Source of the DNA: Pseudoclavibacter sp. AY1H1
GTDB taxonomy: Bacteria; Actinomycetota; Actinomycetes; Actinomycetales; Microbacteriaceae
NCBI RefSeq assembly: GCF_002931055.1
Contig: NZ_PSXX01000002.1
Span: 434,001 to 498,000, forward strand
Direction of reading: 5' to 3'
DNA: 64,000 bases
Part shown: positions 46,702-61,588 of the stretch, piece by piece
Layout: the number at the start of each line of letters is the position of its first letter
Position numbering within the stretch: position 1 is the stretch's first letter
The notes under the pieces: model-generated
Told to the model about the DNA's origin: nothing
The model's database searches: none
Seen by the model: the letters and a program-made list of their open reading frames with translations, nothing else
Made by a program: the position numbers and the translations under genes

Positions 46702-48069
46702 TCAGTACGCGAAGGCCGAAGGTGCGCGCGTTCCTCGCTCGGGCACGGGGATGCCGAGGTTCTCCCGCAGCGTCGTCCCCGTGTACTCCTCGCGAAGCGA
46801 GCCGCGCTCCTGGAGGATCGGCACGACGTGGTCCACGAACTCGTCGATGCCGCCGGGCGTGAGATGCGAGCCGATGACCAGCCCGTCCGAGCCCTCGTTC
46901 TGCACGAAGTCGTCGATCTCCTCGGCGACCTGGGACGCCGTTCCGACGTACCGCACACCGCCGAGCTCGTGGCGCGCGAACTCGCGGATGCTCCAGCCGT
47001 TCTCCGCCGCCTTCTCGCGCCACTTGCGCACGGTCGCGAGGCGGTCGCCATAGGTGAAGGCGCGGCCCTCGATGATCGGCGCGCTCTCCCCATCCGGGTC
47101 GGAGTCGGGCAGCGGACCATCGAAGTCGATCTCCGAGAAGTCCCGGTTCCAGACCTGCTCGAGGCGCACCTGGATCGTGCGCGGGCTCAGCTGCTGCTCC
47201 GTCACCCAGCGCGCCTTCTCCTGCGCCTCCTCGTGGGTGTCGCCGAGCACGAAGCTCGACTGCGGGAGGATCTTGAGGTCGTCCCGGTTGCGGCCGAAGC
47301 CCTCGACCCGACCCTTGATGTCGGCGTAGAAGTCTCGTGCCTCCTCGAGGCGCGAGTACGGGGAGAAGATGACGTCGGCGTTGGCGGCCGCGAAGTCGCG
47401 ACCCTGCGGCGAGATGCCTGCCTGCACGATGATCGGCCTGCCCTGCGGACTGCGGGGAACCGTGAAGCGACCGCTGATGTCGAACTGACTCGTCGAGACG
47501 TCGAAGCGTCCCTCCTCGGCGGAGTCCAGGAACTGGCCAGACTTCTTGTCGGCGACGATCGCATCCGCCGACCAGGAATCCCACAGCTCCCTGACCGTGT
47601 TGACCGTCTGCTCTGCCCGCTCGTAGCGCTCGGCGTGAGGGAGGAAGCCGCCGCGTCGGAAGTTGGCACCGGTGAACGCGTCGAACGATGTGACCACGTT
47701 CCAGCCCGCCCGCCCGCCGGACAGATGATCGAGGCTGGCGAACTGGCGCGCGAGCTCGAACGGCTCGTTGAAGGTGGCGTTGATCGTGCCCACGAGCCCG
47801 ATGTGCTCGGTGACCGCGGCGATGGCGGCAAGCACGGGAATGGTATCGGGGCGCCCCGCGATGTCGTGGTCGAAGATCTCGCCGCGCCGCGAGCGCAGCG
47901 CGAGCCCCTCGGCGAGGAAGAAGTAGTCGAACTTCCCGGCCTCGGCCTTCTGGGCGGCGTGCTTGAACGTCGAGAACTCGATCTGGCTCCCGGCATCCGG
48001 GTGCTCCCAGAGGGTGTGCTCGTTGACTCCGCCGACGTAGGCGGCGAGGATGATCTGCTTCTTGGTCAC
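46702..48069 (-). CDS. NtaA/SnaA/DszA-family FMN-dependent monooxygenase
   Basis: 455 residues from GTG behind AGGAG. It has the bacterial-luciferase-like barrel with the subfamily motif FASLDHLSGGRAGWNVVTS (near 109-127) and NFRRGGFLPHAERYERA. Members use FMNH2 from a separate reductase to oxidise nitrilotriacetate, dibenzothiophene sulfone, pristinamycin and similar molecules. The substrate here is unknown. It is second in a two-gene operon with another LLM-class monooxygenase, 24 bases downstream of it. Confidence 0.92.
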   Translation of the reverse strand: MTKKQIILAAYVGGVNEHTLWEHPDAGSQIEFSTFKHAAQKAEAGKFDYFFLAEGLALRSRRGEIFDHDIAGRPDTIPVLAAIAAVTEHIGLVGTINATFNEPFELARQFASLDHLSGGRAGWNVVTSFDAFTGANFRRGGFLPHAERYERAEQTVNTVRELWDSWSADAIVADKKSGQFLDSAEEGRFDVSTSQFDISGRFTVPRSPQGRPIIVQAGISPQGRDFAAANADVIFSPYSRLEEARDFYADIKGRVEGFGRNRDDLKILPQSSFVLGDTHEEAQEKARWVTEQQLSPRTIQVRLEQVWNRDFSEIDFDGPLPDSDPDGESAPIIEGRAFTYGDRLATVRKWREKAAENGWSIREFARHELGGVRYVGTASQVAEEIDDFVQNEGSDGLVIGSHLTPGGIDEFVDHVVPILQERGSLREEYTGTTLRENLGIPVPERGTRAPSAFAY

Positions 48070-48093
48070 GATGATCTCCTGATCGAGTCGGGC

Positions 48094-49287
48094 CTAGACG
48101 GCGGCGTAGCGGTTCGGGACGGTGGTCGGCAGGCCGAGGAGGCCCCGCAGGGAACGCGCTTCGTAGCGCTCCCGGAAGAGCCCCTTCTGCTGGAGGAGGG
48201 GAACGACGTCGGCGACGATGCGGGGAAGATCGTCCGTCACGACCCCGGGGTGCAGGCGGAAGCCGTCGTAGCCGAGCGCCGAGAGCGTCTCGAAGTGCTC
48301 GACGAGCTCGGAGGCCGAACCGGCGAACACCGCGGGCGGCTGCTCCAGCGTGCGGCCCTTCGCGTCGAGGCGAGCGAGACGAGCAGCCCCGGTCTCCTCG
48401 GGCCCGTCGAGAAATACCGCCACGTCGACGTAGACGGAGAGCGGCTCGCCGGCACGGCCCACGTTCTGCTCGGCGGCCCGCACCTCCGACAGGATGCTCA
48501 CGGCCGAGGCGACATCCGACGGGGTGACGAAGAGCAGATCGGAGCTCGCGGCGGCGAACTCGTACGGCACCTGGGCGTGCCCGAGGGAGGCGACCACGGG
48601 CTGCCCCTGCGGCGGCCGCGGCGTGATCGACGGACCACGCACGCTGAACCATCTGCCCTCGAACTCGACGCGGTGCACCTTCGCGGCGTCGAGGAAGCGG
48701 TCCGTGGAGGCGTCGCGGATCTCCGCGTCGTCCTCCCAGCTGTCCCAGAGCCTGCGCACGACCTCCACGAAGTCGTTGGCCTCGGCGAAGAGGTCGCCGA
48801 TGTCCGCGGTCGAAGCACGCTCGAGGGTCTCCAGGAACTCCGCCGGGTCGCGGCGCCCGAAGTGCGTGTGGTCCGACCCGATCGAGAGTCGAGCCTGCCA
48901 GCCGGCGCGGCCCTCGCTCGTGTAGTCGAGCGTCGCGACAGCCTTGGAGACGTGGAAGGGCTCGGTGTGCGTGGTCGTGACCGTCGGGATGAGACCGATG
49001 CTGTGGGTCACGGGGGCTACCCGCGAGGCGATGAGCAGCGCATCCAGTCGTCCCCGGACCTCGTCGGTGCGATCGTCGTCGTGCAGCCGCTCGGACGACT
49101 GCAGCGCCAGCGAGTCCTCGATGGTCGCGAAGTCGAGGAGCCCCTGCTCGGCGAGCTGGACGAGCCCCACCCAGTAGTCGGGCGTGAAGAGCTCGTCCGG
49201 ACGGGCGCTCGGCTCCCGCCAGGCGGCCGGGTGGATGCCGGCGCCATCGAGTGCGACGCCGAGGTGGATTCGGTGTGGGTTCGTCAT
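48094..49287 (-). CDS. LLM-class flavin-dependent monooxygenase
   Basis: 397 residues. IHLGVALDGAGIHPAAWR starts the barrel, and HVSKAVATLDYTSEGRAGWQARLS is the equivalent of the subfamily's SGGR-GWN motif (quoted in part). It resembles the SsuD/NtaA group. Likely an FMNH2-dependent C-S, C-N or Baeyer-Villiger oxidation. The ATG follows TAGCGT by six bases without a ribosome binding site (leaderless). It is first gene of the operon; a GTGGCGCCAC palindrome lies just upstream. Confidence 0.9.
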   Translation of the reverse strand: MTNPHRIHLGVALDGAGIHPAAWREPSARPDELFTPDYWVGLVQLAEQGLLDFATIEDSLALQSSERLHDDDRTDEVRGRLDALLIASRVAPVTHSIGLIPTVTTTHTEPFHVSKAVATLDYTSEGRAGWQARLSIGSDHTHFGRRDPAEFLETLERASTADIGDLFAEANDFVEVVRRLWDSWEDDAEIRDASTDRFLDAAKVHRVEFEGRWFSVRGPSITPRPPQGQPVVASLGHAQVPYEFAAASSDLLFVTPSDVASAVSILSEVRAAEQNVGRAGEPLSVYVDVAVFLDGPEETGAARLARLDAKGRTLEQPPAVFAGSASELVEHFETLSALGYDGFRLHPGVVTDDLPRIVADVVPLLQQKGLFRERYEARSLRGLLGLPTTVPNRYAAV

Positions 49288-49293
49288 GATCTG

Positions 49294-49310
49294 ACGCTAG
49301 GTGGCGCCAC
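49294..49310 (-). promoter_or_regulatory. leaderless -10 box and 10-bp palindrome
   Basis: On the minus strand TAGCGT (49294-49299) ends six bases before the monooxygenase ATG. One base further upstream is the perfect palindrome GTGGCGCCAC (49301-49310), a candidate operator inside the promoter spacer. Confidence 0.4.
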
Positions 49311-49408
49311 GCGGCGAGGCCACGGCACCTGACGCGCCCCGTTACGCGTCGCAACGTGGCGACATGTTCGTGGAGGCTCCTCGCACCGACGTCGAGCATC
49401 ATCGGGGC

Positions 49409-49750
49409 ATGGCTATCAAGGGCGTACTTGCGCAGATCACCGTGTCCGACCTGGCTCAGGCTACGGAATATTACGGCAGGCTCTTCGGGCGCGGCCCCGA
49501 CGAGAATCCGATGCCGGGCCTTCTGGAGTGGCACTTCACAAGCGAGGCCGGCCTGCAGCTCTGGGCCGACTCGAGCCGCTCGGGCAGATCCACGGTGGTG
49601 TTCACCGAGGACGACCTCGCCGGTGTCGCCGAACGGCTCGACGCGGCCAGGATCGAGCACGGTGGAATCGAAGACGCCACTCACTTCCAGATCCTCCAGG
49701 TGCTCGACCCGGAAGGCAATCACGTGGTCTTCACGAGCGCAGGAAGCTAG
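49409..49750 (+). CDS. VOC (glyoxalase/bleomycin-resistance) family protein
   Basis: 113 residues from ATG 49409 (MAIKGVLAQITVSDLAQATEYY; quoted in part). One vicinal-oxygen-chelate domain with two beta-alpha-beta-beta-beta halves, ending DPEGNHVVF. Only some of the usual metal ligands are obvious, so it may bind rather than convert its ligand. Divergent from the monooxygenase pair and only 33 bases before the riboswitch, so read-through into the thiamine operon is possible. Confidence 0.85.
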   Translation: MAIKGVLAQITVSDLAQATEYYGRLFGRGPDENPMPGLLEWHFTSEAGLQLWADSSRSGRSTVVFTEDDLAGVAERLDAARIEHGGIEDATHFQILQVLDPEGNHVVFTSAGS

Positions 49751-49769
49751 GCGCGGACGGCGCCGGGGC

Positions 49770-49775
49770 TACAGT
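49770..49775 (+). promoter_or_regulatory. -10 box for the TPP-riboswitch transcript
   Basis: TACAGT ends eight bases before the first paired base of the riboswitch, matching the expected start of the aptamer transcript. The -35 is weak. Confidence 0.45.
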
Positions 49776-49783
49776 GTGGCCGT

Positions 49784-49883
49784 GCACGGGAGCCCGATGA
49801 GTCGGGCTGAGAGGGAGTACTCGAACTCCGACCGTTGAACCTGATCTGGGTAATGCCAGCGAAGGGAGTCAACTCACCCGTGC
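49784..49883 (+). ncRNA. TPP (THI-box) riboswitch
   Basis: All conserved parts are present. P1 arms are GCACGGG (49784-49790) and CCCGTGC (49877-49883). The pyrimidine-sensing CTGAGAGGGA follows a GCCCGA/TCGGGC stem. Then come ACCGTTGAACCTGATCTGG and GTAATGCCAGCGAAGGGAG, the family's most conserved stretch. It should sense thiamine pyrophosphate and switch off ykoFEDC and the following monooxygenase. Since only 27 bases separate it from ATG 49911 and no terminator stem or T-run is seen, translational control by hiding GGAAGG is likely. Confidence 0.97.
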
Positions 49884-49910
49884 CGTCACGCTCCGACGGA
49901 AGGCACGCAC

Positions 49911-50585
49911 ATGGAAACCATCACCCAGGACCCGCTCGCATTCGGGGTGGGCGCACGAGTCACCGTCTCGGTCATGTCCGACCGCTACGTCGACGTGATC
50001 CTCGCCGCACTCGACGCCGCCGACTCTTCCGGCCTCGTGCTCGAGACGGGCGACGTGAGCACCTACGCGGGCGGCGACGAGCAGTCACTGCTGCGCTGGC
50101 TCACCGACCTCTCGCAGCACATCGCGGCGACGGGACTGCACGCCTCCATCCAGGTGCTGCTGTCTCGCGGCTGCCCCGGCGAGGCCGTCTGCGATCTGCC
50201 GGGAGGCGCCGGCCCCAGGCGAGTGGACGCGCCCCGCGGACGGAGGTCTGGGAGCTTCGCGAGCGCGGAGTGGGCGCTCTACCCCCTCGAGGATGCGGGC
50301 TCGGCAGAGCGGACGCCCGACCACATGCGCGAGATCTACGCGGCCATCGAGACGGCGAAGGCGAGCGGCACGTTCGTGGCCTCCGAGCATTTCGTGACGA
50401 AGCTCAGCGGCGACCTCGGGCGCGTGCTCGAGACGGTCGCGGTCGCTTGGGCGGGGGTCGGGGCGCACGTGCAGCACGTGACGAGCCACCTCACGATCTC
50501 GCTGAACAGCCCCAGCCACGCAAGCGGCCAGGCAGACACAGCAGTTGACTCGGCAATCGACTCGGGAGCCGAGGCTCGCGCATGA
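49911..50585 (+). CDS. ykoF: YkoF-like thiamine/HMP-binding protein
   Basis: 224 residues with two tandem ferredoxin-like YkoF halves: VGARVTVSVMSDRYVDVILAAL at the start (quoted in part) and ASEHFVTKLSGDLGRVLETV later. Bacillus YkoF binds thiamine. Here it is first under the TPP riboswitch. The C-terminal ~25 residues are a polar tail. The TGA stop overlaps the ykoE ATG (ATGA). Confidence 0.9.
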   Translation: METITQDPLAFGVGARVTVSVMSDRYVDVILAALDAADSSGLVLETGDVSTYAGGDEQSLLRWLTDLSQHIAATGLHASIQVLLSRGCPGEAVCDLPGGAGPRRVDAPRGRRSGSFASAEWALYPLEDAGSAERTPDHMREIYAAIETAKASGTFVASEHFVTKLSGDLGRVLETVAVAWAGVGAHVQHVTSHLTISLNSPSHASGQADTAVDSAIDSGAEARA

Positions 50586-51172
50586 GCCTCAAGCTGCGGG
50601 ACATCGTGCTCATGGTCGTGCTCGGCACGGTCTTCGGCTTCCTGTACTGGGCGCTCGTGCAGGCGTGGACTGCGCTCTCCATCGCGATGGGGCCAGCTGG
50701 CGACCTCGCCCAGCACTTCCTCTTCGGCGGCTGGCTACTCGTCGCGCCCATCGCGATCGCCATCATCCGCCGGCCGTTCGTCGGCGTCATCGCGGAGGTG
50801 CTCGCCTCCGTCATCGAGGTCGTGTTCCTCGGCTCGGCCGTCGGCCCCCTGCTCTTCGTCGCCGCCGCCATCCAGGGCGTCGGCAGCGAGCTGCCGTTCG
50901 CGCTCGGCCGGTACCGGAAGTACGGGTGGCTGCGGTATGCGATCTCCGGCGCGCTCGGCGCGGGCCTCGTGTTCTTCTACTCGGCGTTCCGCTCGGGCTG
51001 GTACGGCCAGGAGATCCTGTTCCTGCGCTTCGGCATCCAGCTCGCCTCTGGCATCATCCTCGGCGGCCTGCTCGCGAAGCTCATCGTCGATTCGCTCGTG
51101 CGCACCGGCGTGCTCGACAACTTCGCGATCGTGCAGGACTCGAAGCCGCTCGCCGTTCGCCGTGCGGTCTGA
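50582..51172 (+). CDS. ykoE: ECF transporter S component for thiamine precursor (YkoE)
   Basis: 196 residues with about six membrane helices (starts SLKLRDIVLMVVLGTVFGFLYW; quoted in part, with GIILGGLLAKLIVDSLVRTGVL near the end). It is the substrate-binding membrane subunit of the YkoEDC transporter, thought to import hydroxymethylpyrimidine or a similar thiamine precursor. The gene overlaps ykoF by 4 bases and ykoD by 11. Confidence 0.92.
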   Translation: MSLKLRDIVLMVVLGTVFGFLYWALVQAWTALSIAMGPAGDLAQHFLFGGWLLVAPIAIAIIRRPFVGVIAEVLASVIEVVFLGSAVGPLLFVAAAIQGVGSELPFALGRYRKYGWLRYAISGALGAGLVFFYSAFRSGWYGQEILFLRFGIQLASGIILGGLLAKLIVDSLVRTGVLDNFAIVQDSKPLAVRRAV

Positions 51173-52886
51173 CAGCTCGAGCGCCGATAGCTCGAGCACC
51201 GATATCTCAAGCGCCGACATCGAGGCGGTCGGTTTCGAGGCGATCCACTCCTCTGGAGACGGGCTCGGGCCAGTGGATCTGCGCGTGGCGCCGGGCGAGC
51301 ACGTGCTCGTCATCGGGCCGTCTGGGGCGGGCAAGTCGACGCTGCTGCAGGCGCTCAGCGGGGTCATCCCCCATACCGTCCCCGCCCAGGTCAGCGGGCG
51401 CATCCGCATCTGCGGGGTGGAGACGCAGGAATCGGACGTGCCGCGCCTCTCCAGGCACCTCTCCGTCGTCGCGCAGAACCCGAGCTCCTCGGTGTGCCTC
51501 CCCGACGTCGCCGACGAGATCGCGTTCCCGCTCGAGAACCACGCCTGGGCTCCCGAGGCGATGGGGCCAGCGGTGCGCGCGGCCCTCGACCTCGTCGGCG
51601 CGGGGGTACTCGCCGGCCGTCGCACGGCGACGCTCTCGGGCGGTGAGACCCAGCGCGTGGCCCTCGCCGCGGCCATCGTCACGGAGCCCCGTGTCCTGGT
51701 GCTCGACGAGCCCACCTCGATGCTCGACCCTGCGGGAATCTCGTCGGTGCGCAAGGCGGTCGACGCGGCCTCTGCAAGAGCATCCACGATCGTGCTCGTC
51801 GAGCACCGGCTGGACGAGTACGCGGGAGCGCGCGGCATCGCGGGACTCCCGGGACGCACGGTCGTGATTGCGCGCGGTGGCGTCATCGCGCACGACGGCC
51901 CGACCGCACGGGTGCTGGTCGAGCACGCAGCGACCCTGCAGGAGGCCGGGTGCTGGCTGCCGCTCGACGCGGAACTCGCCGCGCTCACCGGCCTCGAGGG
52001 CGGACTCGCGAACGACGAGGTCGCGGACCGGGTCGCCGCGCTCGGGGCGCGCGCCGAGACCCGGACGGCCGCAGTGGCGCCCTCGGCACCGACCCGCGAG
52101 GCGGAGGCCCTCAGCGTCGACAGCCTCGACGTCGTCGCTGGCGGGGCGCCGAAGCGCACTCGCGCCAAGAACGCCTCGGAGGCGATCCTCCAAGGCGTGA
52201 GCTTCCAGCTCAGAGCGGGCGAGGTCGTGGCGCTCCTCGGCCGCAACGGATGCGGGAAGTCGAGCCTGCTGCGAACGCTCGCGGGTCTCGCTCGGCCCCG
52301 CTCTGGCCAGGTGCATGGCCCCCGCCCCGGCCTCATCTTCCAGAACCCGGAGCACCAGTTCTCCCAGCCGACCGTGCGGCGCGAGATCGAGCACGGCCTC
52401 GGAGCGGATAACGCGGGGCGCATCGCCGAGCTGGTCACCCGCTTCGACCTCTCGGCGCACCTCGACCACAGCCCATTCCGCCTCTCGGGCGGGCAGCAGC
52501 GGCGGGTGAGCATCGCCGCCATGCTCGCCCACGACCGGCCGTTCCTCCTCGCCGACGAGCCCAGCTTCGGCCTCGACCGCCGTTCGAGCATCGCTGCGAT
52601 GCACGCCCTCGATTGCACCGCGCGCAGCGGCTGCGGCGTGCTCTTCTCCAGCCACGAGCTGCGCGCCGTCTGCACGTACGCCGACCGCGTGCTGGTCCTC
52701 GCCGAAGGCGGGCTCATCGCCGAGACGACGCCGTTCGAGCTCCTCGAGGACGAGGGCCTCCTCGCCGCAGCGGGCCTCGAGCGATCGCCGCTGCTGAGCT
52801 GGCTCCAGGCGCGGCGCTTCCCCGCCGAGCGGGCGCGCGCGATCCTGCGCGAGCTCGACGACGCCGCGACACGGGTCGCGGCATGA
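51162..52886 (+). CDS. ykoD: duplicated ECF transporter ATPase (YkoD)
   Basis: 574 residues from GTG 51162, overlapping the ykoE end; no ribosome binding site is seen, so translational coupling is inferred. Two ABC domains: Walker A GPSGAGKST (52-60), signature LSGGETQRVALAAAI and Walker B VLVLDEPTSMLD; then GRNGCGKSS, LSGGQQRRVSIAAML and FLLADEPSFGLD. The first ~25 residues repeat Ser-Ser-Ala/Thr-Asp units. It powers uptake with YkoC and YkoE. Confidence 0.92.
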   Translation: MRSDSSSADSSSTDISSADIEAVGFEAIHSSGDGLGPVDLRVAPGEHVLVIGPSGAGKSTLLQALSGVIPHTVPAQVSGRIRICGVETQESDVPRLSRHLSVVAQNPSSSVCLPDVADEIAFPLENHAWAPEAMGPAVRAALDLVGAGVLAGRRTATLSGGETQRVALAAAIVTEPRVLVLDEPTSMLDPAGISSVRKAVDAASARASTIVLVEHRLDEYAGARGIAGLPGRTVVIARGGVIAHDGPTARVLVEHAATLQEAGCWLPLDAELAALTGLEGGLANDEVADRVAALGARAETRTAAVAPSAPTREAEALSVDSLDVVAGGAPKRTRAKNASEAILQGVSFQLRAGEVVALLGRNGCGKSSLLRTLAGLARPRSGQVHGPRPGLIFQNPEHQFSQPTVRREIEHGLGADNAGRIAELVTRFDLSAHLDHSPFRLSGGQQRRVSIAAMLAHDRPFLLADEPSFGLDRRSSIAAMHALDCTARSGCGVLFSSHELRAVCTYADRVLVLAEGGLIAETTPFELLEDEGLLAAAGLERSPLLSWLQARRFPAERARAILRELDDAATRVAA

Positions 52887-53647
52887 GCCCCGCGCTCGAG
52901 CGCCGCAACCCCACCGTCAAGCTCGCGGTGCTGTTCGCCTGCTCGCTCGCGACGCTGTTCATCCTGAACCCGCTGACCCTTGGCCTGCTGACCGTGCTCG
53001 CGATCATCGCCGTGCTGACGACGACGAGGCTCACCCCAGGAAGACTGCTCGCCGCATCCGTCCCCTTCGTCGCGTTCGGGGTCGGCCTGGTCATGGTCAA
53101 CGCGCTCAGCCGTCCAGGGGGCGAGATCCTCGAAGGCCTGCCGGTTCGGGTGACCAGCGAGGGCCTCGCCATCGGGTTCGCCCTGGCGCTGCGCACGACG
53201 GTCATCGGCATGCTGTCGATCGCGTTCATCGCGAGCACTCCACCCCGTGACCTCATGACGAGCCTCACACAGCACGCCAGGCTCAGCCCCCGCTTCGCGT
53301 ACGCCCTGCTCGCCGGATTCCGCCTCCTGCAGCTCCTGCCGAGCGAGTGGCAGAGCATCCGCGCCGCGCAGGCCGTCCGGGCGCCGCTCGGACGAGACGG
53401 CACGCCGCGCACCGGGATCACCGCGTTCGGCGCTGCCGCGTTCTCTCTGCTCGTCGTCTCGATCCGCTCCGGTGAGCGCATCGCCCAGGCCCTCGAGTCG
53501 CGAGGCCTCGGAGCGGGTCCCCGCACCGTCTGGCGCCCGGTCGCGCTCGATGCCCGCGACGCAACACTCGCCATCGTCGTACTCTGCGCGTTCGCACTCG
53601 CGGCCACGCTCGGCATCGCCGCGGGAACGGGGCTGTCGCTTGTCTGA
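52883..53647 (+). CDS. ykoC: ECF transporter transmembrane (T) component (YkoC)
   Basis: 254 residues, with membrane helices near 14-35, 40-60, 65-85, 105-125, 190-210 and 230-250. The coupling region between them has FRLLQLLPSEWQSIRAAQAVRA, matching the A-R-x-like helices of CbiQ-type T components (quoted in part). Start ATG overlaps the ykoD stop (ATGA). Confidence 0.9.
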   Translation: MSPALERRNPTVKLAVLFACSLATLFILNPLTLGLLTVLAIIAVLTTTRLTPGRLLAASVPFVAFGVGLVMVNALSRPGGEILEGLPVRVTSEGLAIGFALALRTTVIGMLSIAFIASTPPRDLMTSLTQHARLSPRFAYALLAGFRLLQLLPSEWQSIRAAQAVRAPLGRDGTPRTGITAFGAAAFSLLVVSIRSGERIAQALESRGLGAGPRTVWRPVALDARDATLAIVVLCAFALAATLGIAAGTGLSLV

Positions 53648-55025
53648 GAACAGCACGCGTCGGCTCACGCTCGTCGGGATGGTCAACCCGCCGACCCAGC
53701 GCTACGCTGCCGCATGGCGCCACCCGGACTCGAACGGCGACTGGCTGCGCGCCAGCTCGTACATCGACATCGCGCGACTCCTCGAGCGCGGCGGCTTCGA
53801 CCTCATGTTCCTGCCAGACGCGCTCGCGATCCCGGAAGACGCCCTCGGCGACGTCGCGACGACCCTCGCCAGCGGCGGCAAGGGAGCCGTGACGCTCGAC
53901 CCCATCACCGTGCTGAGCGCCGTCATCGGGGCGACGCGGAGCATCGGACTCGGGGCGACCGTGTCGACCACGTTCCTGCCGCCGTACGCCATAGCGCGGA
54001 CGCTCTCGAGCCTCGACCACCTCTCCGCGGGGCGCGTGGCCTGGAACATCGTGACCTCGACGACGGATGCCGAGGCGCGCAACCTCGGCCTCGACCGCAT
54101 CCCACCGAAGGGGCAGCGCTACGACCGCGCCGACCGCGTCGTGGCGCAGGTGCTCGAGCTCATGGGCACGTGGGATCCGGCTGCGCTGGTGCAGGACGCC
54201 CGGAGCGGCGTGTTCGCCGACCCGAGCCTCGTCTCGCGCACTCCGGCGCCGCGAGAACGTGCGGCGGCACCCGGCCCGCTGAGCCTCCCGAGGAGCCCCC
54301 AGGGACATCCGGTGCTCATGCAGGCGGGAACCTCGCCGCGCGGCATGCAGTTCGCCGCGAAGTGGGCGGAGCTGGTCTTCGTCGCGGCCGACGGCATCGA
54401 CGGCAACCGGGCGGTGCGCACCGAGCTTCGCGAGCGGGCCAGACTCGCGGGGCGTGATCCGGACGAGCTCCGCGTGTGCGCTGCGATCCAGCCGATCGCT
54501 GGATCGACGCGTATCGATGCAGTCGGCGTCCGCGACTCGCTCCTCGCGCACATCGACGAAGCCTCGGCCGTGCGCTCGCTTGCGCGGCTCATGCACGCTG
54601 ACGCCGCGACACTGCGACTCGACGGGGACGCCGAAGGCTTCCTCGCCGCGCACCGGGGCGCGACGGGAAGCGATGGCTTCGAGGACATGCTCGCGGCCGT
54701 CTCCGCAAGGGAGGGCCTCACCGTCCGCGACCTCGCCCTGCGCCAGTCGCTCGACCAGCTCACGCCGTCCCCGCTCGGCAGCGGCGCCGACATCGCCGAC
54801 GAGCTGTGCGAGTGGCAGGATGCCGGGGCGGCTGACGGCTTCGTCGTGACCCCGGCCCTCCTGCCCGGCTCGCTCGAGGACTTCGTCGAGCACGTGGTTC
54901 CCGAGCTGCGCAGGCGCGGCCGCCTCAGCGAACCTGCCGCAGCACCCTCGGCGCCGACGCTGCGTTCGCGCCTGGCCGCCAAGAACGCCCCGAGAGCTCA
55001 GTCACCCCCGAGAGCTCAGCCCTGA
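53640..55025 (+). CDS. NtaA/DszA-like FMN monooxygenase at the end of the TPP-riboswitch operon
   Basis: 461 residues from TTG 53640, which overlaps the ykoC end by eight bases. The first ATG (53679) would remove the conserved first strand RLTLVGMV, so TTG is preferred. The motif SSLDHLSAGRVAWNIVTS identifies the FMNH2-dependent NtaA/SnaA/DszA group, and SLPRSPQGHPVLMQAGTSPRG is also typical (quoted in part). With no gap after ykoC, it must be in the riboswitch transcript. It may therefore act on thiamine, a thiazole or an imported precursor. It converges on the dehydrogenase gene with a 10-base overlap. Confidence 0.9.
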   Translation: MSENSTRRLTLVGMVNPPTQRYAAAWRHPDSNGDWLRASSYIDIARLLERGGFDLMFLPDALAIPEDALGDVATTLASGGKGAVTLDPITVLSAVIGATRSIGLGATVSTTFLPPYAIARTLSSLDHLSAGRVAWNIVTSTTDAEARNLGLDRIPPKGQRYDRADRVVAQVLELMGTWDPAALVQDARSGVFADPSLVSRTPAPRERAAAPGPLSLPRSPQGHPVLMQAGTSPRGMQFAAKWAELVFVAADGIDGNRAVRTELRERARLAGRDPDELRVCAAIQPIAGSTRIDAVGVRDSLLAHIDEASAVRSLARLMHADAATLRLDGDAEGFLAAHRGATGSDGFEDMLAAVSAREGLTVRDLALRQSLDQLTPSPLGSGADIADELCEWQDAGAADGFVVTPALLPGSLEDFVEHVVPELRRRGRLSEPAAAPSAPTLRSRLAAKNAPRAQSPPRAQP

Positions 55026-56533
55026 GCGCCCCAGGTGGCCGACTGACCCGCGGCGGCCCGCTGCTGCGGCACACCCCACGGGTTCGCGTCCTGCAGCGGC
55101 TCCGGGAGCGCCTCCTGCGGCGCACCCTGGTAGGCGACACCGCGCAGGAAGCGGGAGATGGATGCGGTGCCGACCGACGTGGAGGTGTCGTTCGACGTCG
55201 CCGGGTACGGCCCGCCGTGCTGCATGGCGGGCGTGACGGCAACGCCGGTCGGCCAGCCGCCGAAGAGCACTCGCCCCGTCTTCCTCGCGAGCCCCGCGAC
55301 GAGCGCGGAGAGCGCTGGCGACTGCTCACCGGCGGCGGCGTGCACCGTGCCCGTGAGGTTGCCGACGTAGAGCTCGTCGAGACTCGGCGCGAGCGCCGTC
55401 TCGTCCTCGTACTCGACGATGACCGAGAACGGCCCGAAGACCTCGTCGAGCAGCGTCTCGTCGCCCGCCGCGAGCTTGCTCGCCGGCACGGCCACGATCG
55501 TCGGCGTCGCCCACACGTTGCCGTCGTCATCGCTGCGCACAGCACCTTCGGCGACGACCCGCACACCGTCCGCGTCGAGCACGTCCGCCCGACGTTCGAG
55601 GTACGCGCGGCCGATGCTCGGGTTGAGGAGCCGGTGCTCGGGGGCCTGCTCGGCCGCCTGCGAGACGCGCAGCTGCAGCTCGGCGGCCGCATCCGTCGCG
55701 GGAACCCAGAGGAAGCCGGGCTTCGTGCACAGCTGACCTGCCGAACCGGCGACCGACGCCGCGTAGCCCGCAGCGATCTCCTCTCCGCGCTCCGCGAGCG
55801 CGGCCCCCGTCACGAAGACGGGGTTGACGCTGCCGAGCTCGCCGTAGAACTGGATGGGGCGGGGGCGGGCCGCGGCCTTGTCGGCGAGCAGGCGGCCCAC
55901 GCGGATCGAGCCGGTGAAGGTCCCGACGTCGACGCGGTTGTCCTCGAGCACGGTGACCCCGGCCTGCTGGCCGATCACGAGCGCGAAGACGCCATCGGGG
56001 GCGCCGCACTCGCGAAGAGCTCCCTCGACGACGCGGGCCGTGGCCACGGACAGCTCCGGGTGCCCCGAGTGCCCCTTCACGATGAGCGCGCATCCCGCCG
56101 CGAGCGCGGCGGCGGAGTCGCCACCGGCCACGGAGAAGGCGAAGGGGAAGTTCGATGCGGAGAAGTTGACGGCGACTCCCACCGGCACGAGCATCCGGCG
56201 CACGTCAGGCCGTGGGCCGAGCACGAAGTCCGGGTCGGCCTCGTCGAGGCGGACGTCGAGGTACGAGCCGTCGCGGATGACGTCGGCGAAGAGGCGGAGC
56301 TGCACGGTCGTGCGCTTCAGCTCGCCCGTGAGCCGCGCCTGCGCGAGCCCCGTCTCCCGCATGCCGATGGGGATGAGCTCCCCCACCGCGGCGTCGAGCG
56401 CGTCGGCGATCGCGATGAGGGCGGTGGCGCGCTCCGTGGGTGGGGTCGCCGCCCAGAGGGGGGCGGCCACGGCGGCTGCCGCGAGGATCTGCTCGAGCTC
56501 GGCGTCGCTGGTATGCGGGGTGGGTGTGCTCAT
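55016..56533 (-). CDS. alpha-ketoglutarate semialdehyde dehydrogenase
   Basis: 505 residues from ATG 56533 (an in-frame TTG four codons earlier is possible). Aldehyde dehydrogenase fold with NFSASNFPFAFSVAGGDSAA, the general-base Glu in FYGELGSVNP and the nucleophile Cys in GSAGQLCTKPG. The FPFAFS and GELGSVNP forms are those of 2,5-dioxovalerate dehydrogenases. It would oxidise the end product of hydroxyproline breakdown to 2-oxoglutarate. It is the last gene of the catabolic cluster, 13 bases after the epimerase. Confidence 0.92.
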   Translation of the reverse strand: MSTPTPHTSDAELEQILAAAAVAAPLWAATPPTERATALIAIADALDAAVGELIPIGMRETGLAQARLTGELKRTTVQLRLFADVIRDGSYLDVRLDEADPDFVLGPRPDVRRMLVPVGVAVNFSASNFPFAFSVAGGDSAAALAAGCALIVKGHSGHPELSVATARVVEGALRECGAPDGVFALVIGQQAGVTVLEDNRVDVGTFTGSIRVGRLLADKAAARPRPIQFYGELGSVNPVFVTGAALAERGEEIAAGYAASVAGSAGQLCTKPGFLWVPATDAAAELQLRVSQAAEQAPEHRLLNPSIGRAYLERRADVLDADGVRVVAEGAVRSDDDGNVWATPTIVAVPASKLAAGDETLLDEVFGPFSVIVEYEDETALAPSLDELYVGNLTGTVHAAAGEQSPALSALVAGLARKTGRVLFGGWPTGVAVTPAMQHGGPYPATSNDTSTSVGTASISRFLRGVAYQGAPQEALPEPLQDANPWGVPQQRAAAGQSATWGAQG

Positions 56534-56546
56534 CGATGAGTCCAAT

Positions 56547-57554
56547 CTAGAATTCGAATCCAGCCGGGAAGGGGTCTGTCGGGTCGAGCATGTACTGGCC
56601 CATGCCGGTGATCCACGCGCGGCCGGTGATGGTCGGGATCACGGCCGGCCTGTCGCCGACCCGGACTTCGTCGATGAGCTGGCCGGTGAAGCTCGTGCCG
56701 ATGAACGACTCGTTGACGAAGTCGGTGTGCAGTGGGAGCTCACCTCTGGCATGCAGCTCGGCCATGCGTGCGGAGGTGCCGGTGCCGCAGGGTGACCGGT
56801 CGAACCAGCCAGGGTAGATCGCCATCGCGTGGCGCGAGTGGGCGGCGGTGGAGCCGGGTGCGATGAACTCGACGTGGTGCACGTGGTCGACACCCTCGAT
56901 GGTCGGATGCTTGGGCGCGTCGTGGGTGTTGATGGCGTCCATGATCGCGAGACCGGCGCGCATGATGTCGTCTTTGCGGGCCCGGTCGAAGGGCAGGTCG
57001 ACGTCGTCGAGGTCGACCATGGCGTAGTAGTTCCCGCCGAACGCCAGCGAGTAGCGAAGCGCGTCGATGCCGAGTTCCGGCACCGGGACGACGGCGTCGA
57101 GGCGTTCGCAGAAGCTGGGCACATTCTCGATGGTAACGCTAACAGCGCGTCCTTCGCTCACTTCGACGCGAGCGATCACAAGACCCGCCGGAGTATCGAG
57201 ACGAATGACGGTCTCCGGCTCGAGGACCTCCACCATGCCCGTCTCGACCAGCACCGTCGCCGTGCCGATCGTCCCGTGTCCGCACATGGGCAGCAGACCG
57301 GAGACCTCGATGTACAGGACGCCGAAGTCGGCGTCCGGGCGCGTGGACGGCTGGAGGATGCTGCCGCTCATCGCCGAGTGCCCGCGGGGCTCCCGCATCA
57401 GGAACGTCCGCAGGTCGTCGCGATGCTCCTGCACGTACAGCCGCTTGTCGTTCATCGTGGCGCCGGGGATGACCCCGACCCCACCCGTGACGACCCTGGT
57501 CGGCATGCCCTCGGTGTGGGAATCGACGGCGGAGATGACTCGTGATGCTCGCAT
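56547..57554 (-). CDS. 4-hydroxyproline 2-epimerase / proline-racemase family
   Basis: 335 residues from ATG 57554 behind GAGG. Both catalytic cysteines are present: Cys91 in LLPMCGHGTIG and Cys256 in RSPCGTGTSARMA, so this is an epimerase or racemase. The Cys-to-Thr change of hydroxyproline dehydratases is absent. Together with the oxidase, deaminase and dehydrogenase genes, trans-4-hydroxy-L-proline to cis-4-hydroxy-D-proline is the likely reaction. Proline racemase activity cannot be excluded. Confidence 0.92.
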   Translation of the reverse strand: MRASRVISAVDSHTEGMPTRVVTGGVGVIPGATMNDKRLYVQEHRDDLRTFLMREPRGHSAMSGSILQPSTRPDADFGVLYIEVSGLLPMCGHGTIGTATVLVETGMVEVLEPETVIRLDTPAGLVIARVEVSEGRAVSVTIENVPSFCERLDAVVPVPELGIDALRYSLAFGGNYYAMVDLDDVDLPFDRARKDDIMRAGLAIMDAINTHDAPKHPTIEGVDHVHHVEFIAPGSTAAHSRHAMAIYPGWFDRSPCGTGTSARMAELHARGELPLHTDFVNESFIGTSFTGQLIDEVRVGDRPAVIPTITGRAWITGMGQYMLDPTDPFPAGFEF

Positions 57555-57760
57555 GCGAAAAGACCTCAAGTTCGTGAGTGAGGGGCCGCCCAGGGCGGGG
57601 GGACGCCCCGGGCGGCCGGCCCAGCGGGATGAGGGGGGATCGCCCCGCGGGCCAGACGCAACCAGCGCTATTGCCGGATTGCGTCGCATTGGTGCGGGAA
57701 GAGCCCCCGCAAGCAGACGGCAGAGAGGCCAGGAAAGCGACCCCCGTGTCTGCTGCGACC
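57555..57760 (-). other. 206-base gap with stem-loops between deaminase and epimerase genes
   Basis: GGCCGCCC/GGGCGGCC (57584-57617, with inner GGGCG pairing CGCCC) lies just before the epimerase. A second repeat GACGCAA/TTGCGTC spans 57655-57685. No gene is supported. These may moderate the expression of epimerase and dehydrogenase relative to the upstream genes. Confidence 0.5.
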
Positions 57761-58702
57761 CTACTTGAGGGTGGCGAGCGCGTCGAGGGCGCGCTGCGTG
57801 TCGGCACGCACGCGCGCCTCCATCTCCGGCGTCAGCGCAGCGCGGGGCGGGCGGCACGGCCCTCCGTTGCGGCCGACCATGTCCATGCCGAGCTTGATGG
57901 CCTGAACGAACTCGACACGGGAGTCCCAGCGGAACGCCGCGATGAGGCTCTTGTAGATCTCACGCGCCTCGACGTAGCGGCCCGCTGCCATGTGGTCGTA
58001 GATCGCCACGGCCTCGGCGGGGAAGACATTGGGGTAGCCGGCGAACCAGCCGGTGGCACCGTCGATCATGAGCTCGAAGAGCACGTCGTCGCTGCCCGCG
58101 ATGACGTCGATCGTCGAACCGGCCGCCTCGCAGGCCTCCTGGATCTCGAAGGCGCGTCGGACGTCGCCGGAGAACTCCTTGACGGCGACGATGCCGTCGA
58201 TCTTCGCGATCTCCGCGACGAGCTCCGGGCGGAGGTCGACCTTCGTGTCGAGCGGGTTGTTGTAGATCATGACGGGCAGCCCCACTTCGGCGACCTTCGC
58301 GAAGTGCTCGATGACATCCGCATCCGCCGACCGGTACATGGTGGGCGGGAGGCAGAGCACGCCGTGGGCGCCGTCTTCCTTGGCGAGCTGAGCCCAGTGC
58401 TGCGCCTGGTGCCAACCTGGACCGTGCACGCCCGCGACGACGATGCCGCGGTCGCCCACAGCCTCGACGGCGACCTGCACGACCTTGCGGCGCTCCTCAT
58501 CGGTGAGGGACGAGTACTCGCCGAGCGAGCCGTTGGGGCCGACGCCCCGGCAGCCGTTCTCGATGAGCCAGTTGCAGTGCTCGGCGTACGCCTCGAAGTC
58601 GACGGCCAGGCCGGCGGGAGCAGAGGCGTCCTCCTTGTAGGGAAGGGCCGTCGCGACGACGACTCCGCCGAGGTCGAGGTGGGTTGAGGCTGCTTCGGTC
58701 AT
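57761..58702 (-). CDS. DapA-family aldolase/deaminase, likely pyrroline-4-hydroxy-2-carboxylate deaminase
   Basis: 313 residues. A (beta/alpha)8 DHDPS-fold enzyme with Schiff-base Lys175 (AVKEFSGD) and Tyr147 (VMIYNNP). GVGPNGSLGEYSSLTDEER replaces the GTTGE loop of true DapA, so lysine synthesis is unlikely. In hydroxyproline pathways this family converts pyrroline-4-hydroxy-2-carboxylate to 2-oxoglutarate semialdehyde and ammonia, which fits the neighbours on both sides. Its ATG overlaps the upstream FAD gene's stop (ATGA). Confidence 0.88.
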   Translation of the reverse strand: MTEAASTHLDLGGVVVATALPYKEDASAPAGLAVDFEAYAEHCNWLIENGCRGVGPNGSLGEYSSLTDEERRKVVQVAVEAVGDRGIVVAGVHGPGWHQAQHWAQLAKEDGAHGVLCLPPTMYRSADADVIEHFAKVAEVGLPVMIYNNPLDTKVDLRPELVAEIAKIDGIVAVKEFSGDVRRAFEIQEACEAAGSTIDVIAGSDDVLFELMIDGATGWFAGYPNVFPAEAVAIYDHMAAGRYVEAREIYKSLIAAFRWDSRVEFVQAIKLGMDMVGRNGGPCRPPRAALTPEMEARVRADTQRALDALATLK

Positions 58703-60150
58703 GGGTGTTGCCTTCCTGTCAGGGGATGCTGTTCTTCTGAGGTTCCTGCCAGCTCAGCGAGCCGGATGGGGGTCTGGATGGGGCGACGGTCGACGATGCC
58801 CTCGTCGAGACCACGCCCGAGCACCGTCTCGATGAGCTCCTCGGCGCTGCGGCCGCAGATGCGGGCCTGGCAGATGCCGAGACCGGCTCGAGTGGAGAGC
58901 TTCTGGGAGCGCAGACTGTGCGAGTGCGTGGCGGCGGCCTTCCGCCGCAGCTGACCGGCGGTCACCTCTTCGCAGCGGCACACGATGGTGTCCTCGCGCA
59001 GCCACTCCTGCCAGCCCGGCCGCACGCCGTGCGCCGCCTCGATGCGCGCCGCGAACGACCCGAAGATCGCGCGCTTGCGCTGGGCGCCGCTGATCTGAGG
59101 GTCGCTGGACGCACCACCCGCTGCGCAGTGCCCGGCCACGCGCCCCTCGGCGAGGGAGAGGTCGACACCGCCGATGCCCGTCACTTCGCCCGCCGCGTAG
59201 ACGTCGGAGGTGCTCGTGGCGCAGGACTCGTCGATGATCACGAACCGGCTGTCATCGAGCGCGCAGCCGGCCGCGATCGCCACCTCGAGCCGCGGGGTGA
59301 AGCCGTGCGTCACGCAGACGGCGTCGCACGCGACCTCTCGCTCGCTGCCGGCGATGGGCCGCCACTGAGCGTCCACGCTCATGATCGTGACGCGCTCTAC
59401 ACGCCCATCCCCGTGCGCCTCGACGACCGCTTCGCCGACTCGGTACGGGATCCGATGCCGCAGCTGACCGGCGACGTAGCCGAAGAGCTCCTGCACCTTG
59501 CCAGGGGCGCCCGCGAGCTGCCACGGCTTGGGCAGCCAGCCCGAAGCGAGACGCGGGATGCGGTTGGCTTCGACGACCTCAACGACCTTGGAGCCGACCT
59601 GGGCGAGCGAGGCCGCGACGGGGAGAAGGAACGGACCCGCGCCGGCCACCACGACGGCGTCGCCGACCGCGATGCGCTCGCTCTTCGCGAAGGCCTGAGC
59701 AGCACCCCCGGTGTAGACGCCGGGGAGGTCCCAGCCGGGAAACGGGAGGGTGCGGTCGTGAGCACCCGTCGCGACGACAACCGCATCGGGCTCGAGGGTC
59801 GATCGAACGCGGTCGGCCGCATCGGACATGCCGGTGAGCAGCTCCAGCGCGGGCAGCCCGACGGCCCACACGCTCGTCTCGCCGAGCACCGTGATCCGGG
59901 CGTGCGAGCGGACACGTCGGTCGAGGTCCAGGAACGTCGACCAGCCGTGGTGCATGGCTGCCTGCCCCTCGCCGTCGCGCTCCTCCGGCAGATGACGCCA
60001 GTACTGGCCGCCGAGCTCCCGACTCGACTCGATGAGCGTCACGCGCGCCCCGCCCTCCGCTGCGGCCAGCGCGGCCGCGAGGCCTGCGGGGCCACCCCCG
60101 ACGACGGCGACATGGCGTGGCGTCGACTGCTCGGTCCGCGTCGATCTCAT
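58699..60150 (-). CDS. FAD/NAD(P)-binding subunit of a hydroxyproline-type oxidase, with C-terminal 2Fe-2S domain
   Basis: 483 residues. The N-terminal dinucleotide site is VAVVGGGPAGLAAALAAAEGG, described by its GGGPAG core near 17-22, with a second GAGP site near 170. The C-terminus has a BFD-like cluster, CRCEEV and GICQARICG (four Cys). This is the alpha-type subunit of heterotrimeric D-amino acid or opine dehydrogenases (HcnB/OoxA-like). It works with the two genes that overlap upstream. Confidence 0.9.
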   Translation of the reverse strand: MRSTRTEQSTPRHVAVVGGGPAGLAAALAAAEGGARVTLIESSRELGGQYWRHLPEERDGEGQAAMHHGWSTFLDLDRRVRSHARITVLGETSVWAVGLPALELLTGMSDAADRVRSTLEPDAVVVATGAHDRTLPFPGWDLPGVYTGGAAQAFAKSERIAVGDAVVVAGAGPFLLPVAASLAQVGSKVVEVVEANRIPRLASGWLPKPWQLAGAPGKVQELFGYVAGQLRHRIPYRVGEAVVEAHGDGRVERVTIMSVDAQWRPIAGSEREVACDAVCVTHGFTPRLEVAIAAGCALDDSRFVIIDESCATSTSDVYAAGEVTGIGGVDLSLAEGRVAGHCAAGGASSDPQISGAQRKRAIFGSFAARIEAAHGVRPGWQEWLREDTIVCRCEEVTAGQLRRKAAATHSHSLRSQKLSTRAGLGICQARICGRSAEELIETVLGRGLDEGIVDRRPIQTPIRLAELAGTSEEQHPLTGRQHP

Positions 60151-60407
60151 TGGGAGCTCACCTCATCCCCCTCGCACGCGCGCCTCTGGCACGCTCGAAC
60201 GTCCGGCACGCCGTCCACCGTGACGAGGCAGTCGAAGCACACGCCGATGCCGCAGAACAGGCCGCGCGGTTTTCCCGCGACGGCGGTCTCGCGCCAGGAG
60301 ACGCGGCCGGAGCCGAGCAGGACGCCCGCGATGCTCTGCCCCTCGAGACCCTCGACCGTCTCACCGTCGACGGTGATGCGCACGGGCTTGTCGGCGCGCT
60401 CGCTCAT
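60147..60407 (-). CDS. small (2Fe-2S)-binding subunit
   Basis: 86 residues, a plant-type ferredoxin-like subunit with Cys52, Cys57, Cys60 and Cys73 in FCGIGVCFDCLVTVDG and VRACQ. It overlaps both neighbours by four bases (ATGA junctions), as expected of a fixed-ratio complex. It resembles HcnA/OoxC-type gamma subunits. It is short and lies within a longer open frame of another reading phase, so it is easily missed. Confidence 0.93.
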   Translation of the reverse strand: MSERADKPVRITVDGETVEGLEGQSIAGVLLGSGRVSWRETAVAGKPRGLFCGIGVCFDCLVTVDGVPDVRACQRRACEGDEVSSQ

Positions 60408-61588
60408 GCGACCGCCTCCAGCTCTCGGGCGAGCGTCGGGCGGGTCGGTGAGAACAGGGCTGCATCGATCTGCGTCGATCTGCCGTCCATGAGATCCCCG
60501 ATCAGCGACGCCGTGGGCAGCGAGAGGCCGATGCCGGCCCCCTCGTGGCCGGTGGCGTGCCAGAGGCCGGGCAGGCGCGCATCCTGGCCGATGAGCGGCA
60601 GGTGGTCCGGCATGAAGGGGCGGAAGCCCGAGTAGCTGCGGATGACGGCCGTCTGGGCGAGGAAGGGGAAGATCGAGATCGCCTTCACCGCGAGCTGGCT
60701 GAGCACGTTCGCGCGGAACGCGTCGTCGAAACCGACCTGCTCGCGACTCGAGCCGATGAGCACCGTGCCACCCGGAGTCGACTCGACGACGCTCGAGGTC
60801 ATGAGAACCGCGTCGCCGGACCCGACGGCACCGACGTAGTCCGCGTCGTACACCTTGTGGAAGACGCGCTGGGGCATCTTCGCCGTGACCAGGACGACTC
60901 CGCGGCGCGGACGAACGGGGAGGGGCACGCCGAGGGTCGCGGAGACCTCGCCGGACCACGGGCCGGCGGCGACGACGATCTCGGCGCCGCGGACGTCGCC
61001 GGCCGAGGTGCGGACGCCGACGATGCGGCCCGCCTCGCGGATCGCGCCCAGCACGTCGTGGTGCTCGAGGATGCTCGCCCCGCGCGCCCTGGCGAGGGCG
61101 ACGAGCGCTTCGGTTGCGATGGTGGGCTGCACCTGGCTGTCGCCCGGGTACCAGACGGCTGCGGTCATCCGCTCGGTGATCCACGGCTCGAGCTCTCGAG
61201 CCTCGGCGTGCGTGACGGGCTCCGCAGCGACCTGCGCGTGGCGCTGCGTGGACGCGAAGTCCAGGAGGGCGGCCGCTCCCCCGTCGGTCGTCGCGACGAC
61301 GAGGCCGCCCTTGGCTTCGAACTCGATATCGGGAAAGTCGTGGCCGAGCTCGTCGCGGAAGGTTCCGGCGAGCGTCGACCAGGCTGCGTTGGCGAGCTTC
61401 GAGAGCTCGAGCTCGGCGCCTGGCCCCTTGTCGGAGACGAGCAGGTTGCCTTCGCAGTGGGCGCTTGTGCCGCTCGCGACGCGGCCGCGCTCGACGAGCG
61501 CGACTCGCCGGCCACGGCCGGCGAGCTCGGCAGCGCAGGCCGCTCCGATGATGCCACCGCCGATGATCACGACGTCGTACCTGACCAT
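60404..61588 (-). CDS. FAD-dependent oxidoreductase (DAO family), catalytic subunit
   Basis: 394 residues behind AGGAGGTG. The FAD site is VVIIGGGIIGAACAAELAGRG (GGGIIG near 10-15), and GLWHATGHEGAGIGLS near 360 is the C-terminal flavin contact of the DAO/glycine oxidase family. With the two downstream subunits it should oxidise cis-4-hydroxy-D-proline, feeding electrons to the respiratory chain. It is first gene of the catabolic operon. Confidence 0.91.
   Translation of the reverse strand: MVRYDVVIIGGGIIGAACAAELAGRGRRVALVERGRVASGTSAHCEGNLLVSDKGPGAELELSKLANAAWSTLAGTFRDELGHDFPDIEFEAKGGLVVATTDGGAAALLDFASTQRHAQVAAEPVTHAEARELEPWITERMTAAVWYPGDSQVQPTIATEALVALARARGASILEHHDVLGAIREAGRIVGVRTSAGDVRGAEIVVAAGPWSGEVSATLGVPLPVRPRRGVVLVTAKMPQRVFHKVYDADYVGAVGSGDAVLMTSSVVESTPGGTVLIGSSREQVGFDDAFRANVLSQLAVKAISIFPFLAQTAVIRSYSGFRPFMPDHLPLIGQDARLPGLWHATGHEGAGIGLSLPTASLIGDLMDGRSTQIDAALFSPTRPTLARELEAVA

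Follow-up and report, generated by a model that had tools for sequence, protein, structure and literature searches.

The TPP riboswitch-ykoFEDC uptake operon is known from Bacillus subtilis and other Gram-positive bacteria (PMC5037267), where a riboswitch for thiamine pyrophosphate (TPP) precedes genes for YkoE, the fused YkoD, YkoC and YkoF, a protein whose role is called unclear in that source. We analysed 64,000 nucleotides of Pseudoclavibacter sp. AY1H1 (contig NZ_PSXX01000002.1, positions 434,001 to 498,000), a stretch that we call the window. It carries an operon that shares all of these elements with that of B. subtilis, but differs from it by a terminal gene for a flavin mononucleotide (FMN)-dependent monooxygenase of the NtaA/DmoA family, here called LLM. 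Every genome in which LLM has so far been found also encodes YkoF, and this suggests a step of vitamin B1 recovery or clean-up that has not been described before. We found no description joining ykoF, TPP or thiamine riboswitch with a monooxygenase in the open-licence papers searched, a scope that makes this weak evidence.

A ykoFEDC operon ending in a flavin monooxygenase

The operon is made up of the following features, in which ECF stands for energy-coupling factor and HMP for hydroxymethylpyrimidine.

49776-49884, plus strand: TPP riboswitch aptamer (RF00059, 59.2 bits against a gathering score of 54.3)
49784-49907, plus strand: possible expression platform, its function presumed from alternative pairings in forced folds
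49911-50585, plus strand: ykoF, thiamine/HMP-binding protein (PF07615, 83.6 bits; 1s99 YkoF, E 7.8e-20)
50582-51172, plus strand: ykoE, ECF S component (PF09819, 109.6 bits; 5edl YkoE, E 2.1e-22)
51162-52886, plus strand: ykoD, fused double ATPase with a GTG start (two ABC_tran stretches)
52883-53647, plus strand: ykoC, ECF T component (CbiQ, 91.8 bits)
53640-55025, plus strand: LLM, NtaA/DmoA-family FMN-dependent monooxygenase with a TTG start (PF00296, 122.9 bits; TIGR03860, 381.6 bits)

The RF00059, family and TIGR03860 matches confirm the order of riboswitch, ykoFEDC and monooxygenase put forward in a first-pass annotation made from the letters alone, whose starting position, 49784, lies 8 bases inside the aptamer. 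YkoF, YkoE, a fused ATPase and a CbiQ-type T gene occur together in one operon, which identifies a YkoFEDC thiamine ECF transporter. By their coordinates, the successive genes from ykoF to LLM overlap by 4, 11, 4 and 8 bases. The TTG start of LLM, claimed in the same annotation to overlap ykoC by eight bases (53640 against 53647), is supported because a strand encoded upstream of the first ATG, L-x-L-V-G-M-V-N-P-P-T, is kept in frame across orthologues. The stop codon of LLM (55025) falls within the last bases of the aldehyde dehydrogenase gene that converges on it, whose own stop is at 55016. A scan of 49300-55300 for consensus signals of the E. coli type only, which is weak evidence, found no promoter- or terminator-like sites. 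LLM is presumably read from the same transcript as ykoFEDC.

The monooxygenase recurs with YkoF

Orthologues were sought by a one-genome-per-species scan and by genome searches that scored the best 4 to 8 candidates per genome (labels in G and L denote genomes and loci). The species scan gave at least 7 loci at 54-84% identity, followed by a gap down to 42%. Together we found at least 13 intact orthologues, namely those of the window, G073, Pseudoclavibacter sp. RFBB5 (G188), Pseudoclavibacter terrae, G052, Leucobacter sp. 7(1), Leucobacter L43, Microbacterium marinilacus, M. gubbeenense, Actinomycetales JB111, G398, G948 and G944; among the matches listed, P. terrae and RFBB5 are the closest genomes by LLM. 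Phylogenetically, all 13 orthologues belong to a single clade (support 100/100 on a tree of 36 members of the family).

Eight of the 13 lie downstream of ykoFEDC, and each of these eight loci has a TPP riboswitch that scores above the gathering threshold. Three more (L035, L036 and L037) follow ykoF alone, and there the opposite strand carries a TPP riboswitch, an NMT1/THI5-type binding protein, a permease and an ATPase, the family scan of the last two having been made in L036. This riboswitch is over the gathering score in two of the three loci, that of L036 reaching 53.9 against 54.3 bits. LLM therefore shares a cluster with ykoF in 11/13 listed orthologues, and is kept with it beside a second kind of TPP-associated importer. 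The neighbourhood comparison across relatives proposed in the first-pass annotation thus finds the association recurring at eight ykoFEDC and three ykoF-only loci, and bears out the idea that a flavin monooxygenase is linked to the YkoF/YkoEDC uptake genes that a TPP riboswitch precedes.

YkoF itself is present in 13/13 genomes with a listed orthologue (by the family model, in G944 and G948 by tblastn), although these genomes are not independent, four being close Pseudoclavibacter relatives. As a background, strong two-domain YkoF is found in 9/199 genomes of the family sample (18/199 counting weak single matches), and YkoF at E ≤1e-6 in 50/396 genomes of the order sample. When 23 YkoF proteins are placed on a tree (13 from LLM-bearing genomes, 10 from genomes lacking LLM), 6 changes of the with/without label are needed, at least 5 of them forced by the starred branches alone. 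As few are enough in 74 of 500 label shuffles, which means that the label shows hardly any clustering. Since LLM forms a single clade and its YkoF partners are scattered, one LLM lineage is found with many YkoF lineages. The pairing arose by repeated gain or repeated loss, on the choice between which the tree is silent. Among the four Pseudoclavibacter copies of LLM (6 pairs), the nonsynonymous divergence (dN) of 0.107-0.133 against a synonymous divergence (dS) of 0.70-0.91 indicates purifying selection. The association of LLM with YkoF is no local accident, and is stronger than the sequence alone could tell.

Orthologue-class scores are found in 6/10 genomes of the genus sample, which also gave one remnant and no such score in 3/10, in 2/396 order genomes and in 1/394 class genomes, the next scores being 399 and 421 bits. 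Around the matches of 37-42% identity, L039-L042 yielded no TPP riboswitch, nor did tblastn detect ykoF, ykoE or ykoC in L039-L111 (flanks of at most 9 kb, some shorter).

Two loci deserve separate mention. In Leucobacter sp. 7(1), an alpha/beta hydrolase gene lies about 120 bases beyond ykoF (L156:8693-10240, minus strand), where relatives have LLM, and the LLM of this genome (L034) sits elsewhere, after a TetR-type gene. In G945 (L188:8047-8880, minus strand), a C-terminal LLM remnant of 83% identity adjoins the conserved aldehyde dehydrogenase gene; ykoFEDC and the riboswitch are absent from the stretch read around it.

Family, fold and active site of the monooxygenase

The TIGR03860 score of LLM exceeds the curated cut-off of 279.7 bits, which places it in the NtaA/DmoA family, and its sequence-nearest solved structure is that of BdsA (E 5.6e-89). 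The predicted structure, built with 30 sequences (predicted local distance difference test, pLDDT, 88.6; predicted template-modelling score, pTM, 0.89), has a luciferase-like barrel fold that matches BdsA with Z 48.5 over 396 aligned residues, at 1.9 Å root-mean-square deviation and 40% identity. HcbA1, LadA, RcaE, CmoJ, nitrilotriacetate (NTA) monooxygenase, DmoA and EmoA follow at Z 42-47, and RutA near 33.

Compared with BdsA/DszA (5tlc, 5xkd), for which we rely on the residue roles given in PMC5819316, the main FMN-site residues are kept in LLM, V137, S139, R159 and Y160 corresponding to V138, S140, R160 and Y161. F56, F246 and N135 are kept as well, as F57, F247 and N136. The last of these is tied to oxygen activation at the flavin N5 in PMC11134501. 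In contrast, the sulfone-contacting substrate residues F12, H20 and V248 are replaced by M14, Y22 and A249. The placement of H316 and V372 of BdsA in the alignment is uncertain, with H319 of the clade near H316. LLM also differs from BdsA/DszA by its operon context and by a mark of its own, HRGATG[SA]xGFE at 338-348, which is present in 13/13 clade members (S in 12, A in G944), and the core of which occurs in 0/23 outgroup rows. This mark falls in the region corresponding to 304-375 of BdsA, described there as pocket-shaping (PMC5819316). LLM is predicted to be an FMNH2-dependent oxygenase. Its identification as a true DszA was rejected, given the different substrate residues, and so was that as the pyrimidine monooxygenase RutA, for which TIGR03612 gives 48.9 bits against an equivalog cut-off of 498.3.

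Two further luciferase-type monooxygenase genes, LLM2 and LLM3, lie divergently upstream of the riboswitch (window 46702-49287, minus strand), with TIGR03860 scores of 416.7 bits and 259.8 bits, the latter under the cut-off. They are conserved at the same place in RFBB5 (L025), and in L026 and L187 they match nothing but LLM itself. A recent origin of LLM from either was rejected, as both fall outside the clade of 13, on long branches that leave their own position unsure. On the other side of the operon, window 55016-61588 (minus strand) holds a convergent cluster encoding the aldehyde dehydrogenase, proline racemase family and DHDPS family proteins and FAD oxidoreductases, which we take to resemble hydroxyproline catabolism.

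Riboswitch and regulation

In the leader, GCACGGG (49784-49790), a segment overlapping the P1/P2 5' strands of the aligned aptamer, is able to pair with CCCGUGC (49877-49883). The alternative is a helix between CGUGCC (49879-49884) and GGCACG (49902-49907), which covers the Shine-Dalgarno sequence GGAAGG (49898-49903). Compared as forced alternative pairings without ligand, the two folds have energies of -56.3 kcal/mol (GCACGGG paired) and -51.8 kcal/mol (alternative). Pairing of the Shine-Dalgarno sequence is 0.78-1.0 at 5 of its 6 bases in the alternative fold and still partial, 0.02-0.83, in the other, so that the contrast between them is only partial. The leader is nearly identical in P. 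terrae (L032), RFBB5 (L025) and G073 (L024), and its folding z-score is unremarkable (-0.95). The pairing layout is that of an off switch, the presumed polarity here being the general one of bacterial TPP riboswitches.

Thiamine metabolism and import in the hosts

ThiC and ThiE were searched for in 10 genomes bearing LLM, that of the window and 9 others. ThiC was found in 0/10 and ThiE over the cut-off in 0/10; three ThiE matches, including one from the window's genome, were weak and fell below the cut-off. The observation in the first-pass annotation that no classical thi gene lies nearby holds, and for ThiC, and ThiE over the cut-off, it extends genome-wide to these 10 genomes. The hosts are predicted on these grounds to be thiamine auxotrophs. 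As ThiC was not found, nor ThiE over the cut-off, the pyrimidine and thiazole halves are unlikely to be joined by the known enzyme, and the host should require thiamine with its skeleton intact. The suggestion of that annotation that an uncharacterised salvage or degradation step is involved stands as regards a thiamine-linked enzyme, and its examples of free thiazole or pyrimidine are not supported as worded; with no ThiE over the cut-off, recovery of HMP or thiazole in free form through the known pathway was rejected as the principal explanation.

TenA was found in 1/11 genomes (G052), and the TPK catalytic family in 2/11, both as short matches over the cut-off. The second TPP riboswitch of the window's genome (G000, contig C19, L023:3054-6837, minus strand) leads a second ECF operon, which encodes a YkoE-like S component, a fused ATPase, a CbiQ-type T component and a terminal P-loop protein of 190 amino acids. 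The latter is near the NCBIfam model PRK06547 'hypothetical protein' (170.6 bits, cut-off 173), and, since no TPK family match was found in that genome, it is a candidate thiamine kinase that has so far gone unrecognised.

Regarding the importer, W49, E77 and Q95 of B. subtilis YkoE hold the thiamine pyrimidine, and the thiazole is contacted by the less conserved Y46 and D131, according to PMC5037267. We aligned YkoE in 18 actinobacterial rows (8 with LLM in the operon, 1 with LLM elsewhere and 9 without LLM). The three pyrimidine-binding residues are kept in 18/18 rows, including that of the window, whereas Y46 and D131 are changed in 18/18, to F and S in the window, operons without LLM included. 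Judged by sequence, this pattern agrees with the import of compounds that share the pyrimidine half.

Proposed function and alternative explanations

A thiamine derivative with both halves joined, or a toxic analogue, fits better than the free halves as the substrate of LLM. We tentatively favour a function in which LLM, together with YkoF, oxidises a putative thiamine derivative that still bears the pyrimidine half, so that thiamine can be recovered. In such a mechanism, scarcity of TPP would let ykoFEDC and LLM be made together, given an off-switch polarity. YkoEDC would import thiamine or related compounds, and YkoF would bind these by their aminopyrimidine (HMP) half and might hand them over to LLM. 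A reductase encoded elsewhere would supply reduced FMN, and LLM would oxidise the derivative by means of a flavin hydroperoxide, perhaps formed at N5, the position proposed for the related DszA; thiamine would then be recovered from the derivative. A broader proposal, conceivable but rather unlikely, is that YkoF is a substrate carrier for a dedicated LLM, and that the two together turn modified or oxidised thiamine back into B1 in hosts unable to make the vitamin, YkoEDC and ThiYXZ-type importers being interchangeable.

Several observations weigh against the recovery of thiamine by LLM. The operon has no flavin reductase gene, and the FMN-phosphate contact H156 of BdsA is K157 in LLM. The YkoE residues are the same in operons with and without LLM, and the aptamer was not found on the own strand of the three ykoF-LLM pairs. 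Furthermore, no TPK family match was found in 9/11 genomes, and the step from thiamine to TPP is therefore not accounted for. Most ykoFEDC operons lack LLM: among the genomes with two-domain YkoF of the family sample, LLM is in the ykoF operon in 4/9 and was not found there in 5/9. Finally, LLM is away from ykoF in 2/13 listed orthologues (L034, L140), the genomes of which both hold ykoF under or beside a TPP riboswitch.

Salvage or repair is likely ahead of detoxification as an explanation, with catabolism and hitchhiking as weaker rivals. It is unlikely, but worth considering, that the role of LLM is to break down antivitamins of thiamine, or its oxidised forms (compounds like bacimethrin, oxythiamine or oxothiamine), taken up by the importer once thiamine shortage has derepressed it. 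The control logic would be the same as for salvage, and the patchy distribution of LLM suits a defence-like trait. Judging from the YkoE residues and from PMC5627462, it is chiefly the pyrimidine half that is recognised by YkoE and YkoF, and look-alikes should therefore enter; that paper also describes Nudix enzymes clustered with thiamine genes in a protective role of this kind. However, our literature search gave no flavin monooxygenase acting on these antivitamins, and the toxic substrate is putative.

That the gene merely rides on the expression of the uptake operon, with an unrelated substrate, seems improbable. The absence of LLM from most ykoFEDC operons and the two orthologues apart from ykoF are what such a passenger would lead one to expect, and Pseudoclavibacter has two more superfamily members directly upstream of the riboswitch. 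Against this, LLM recurs with ykoF in differing flanks and with two importer types, and YkoF accompanies it in all 13 genomes, with partners scattered on the YkoF tree. Less probable still is that LLM oxidises imported thiamine breakdown products (thiazole sulfur, pyrimidine nitrogen) for nutrients: the relatives BdsA/DszA, DmoA, EmoA and NTA monooxygenase act in catabolism on sulfur- or nitrogen-containing compounds, and without ThiE, HMP and thiazole are unusable as precursors by the known route, but a TPP off-switch would act under shortage of thiamine and not of sulfur or nitrogen, and the operon has no further catabolic gene.

If recovery of thiamine by LLM and YkoF is true, the pair would constitute an undescribed oxygen-dependent vitamin repair step. 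From the association it would seem that certain thiamine auxotrophs can exploit or neutralise B1 forms now counted as lost or toxic, and the recurrent partner enzyme offers a direct route to testing the purpose of YkoF.

Comparison with known systems

The ThiXYZ/TenA salvage of base-degraded thiamine resembles the ykoF-LLM pairs of three genomes in the TPP-associated NMT1/THI5-type ABC importer beside them, but differs in that TenA was found in just 1/11 genomes and ThiE over the cut-off in 0/10. As regards the enzyme, the riboflavin lyase RcaE shares its overall fold with the predicted structure of LLM (Z 46.5, 32% identity) and also acts on a vitamin, although we know of no link between RcaE and YkoF, and its substrate, judging from PDB entry titles, is riboflavin. 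The alkylcysteine sulfoxide C-S monooxygenase CmoJ/YtnJ is of the same superfamily branch (Z about 46, about 32% identity) and is tied to cysteine and not to thiamine. It nevertheless provides a family precedent for the salvage of a modified sulfur metabolite, acting in cysteine salvage from S-alkyl-cysteine according to PMC10863075.

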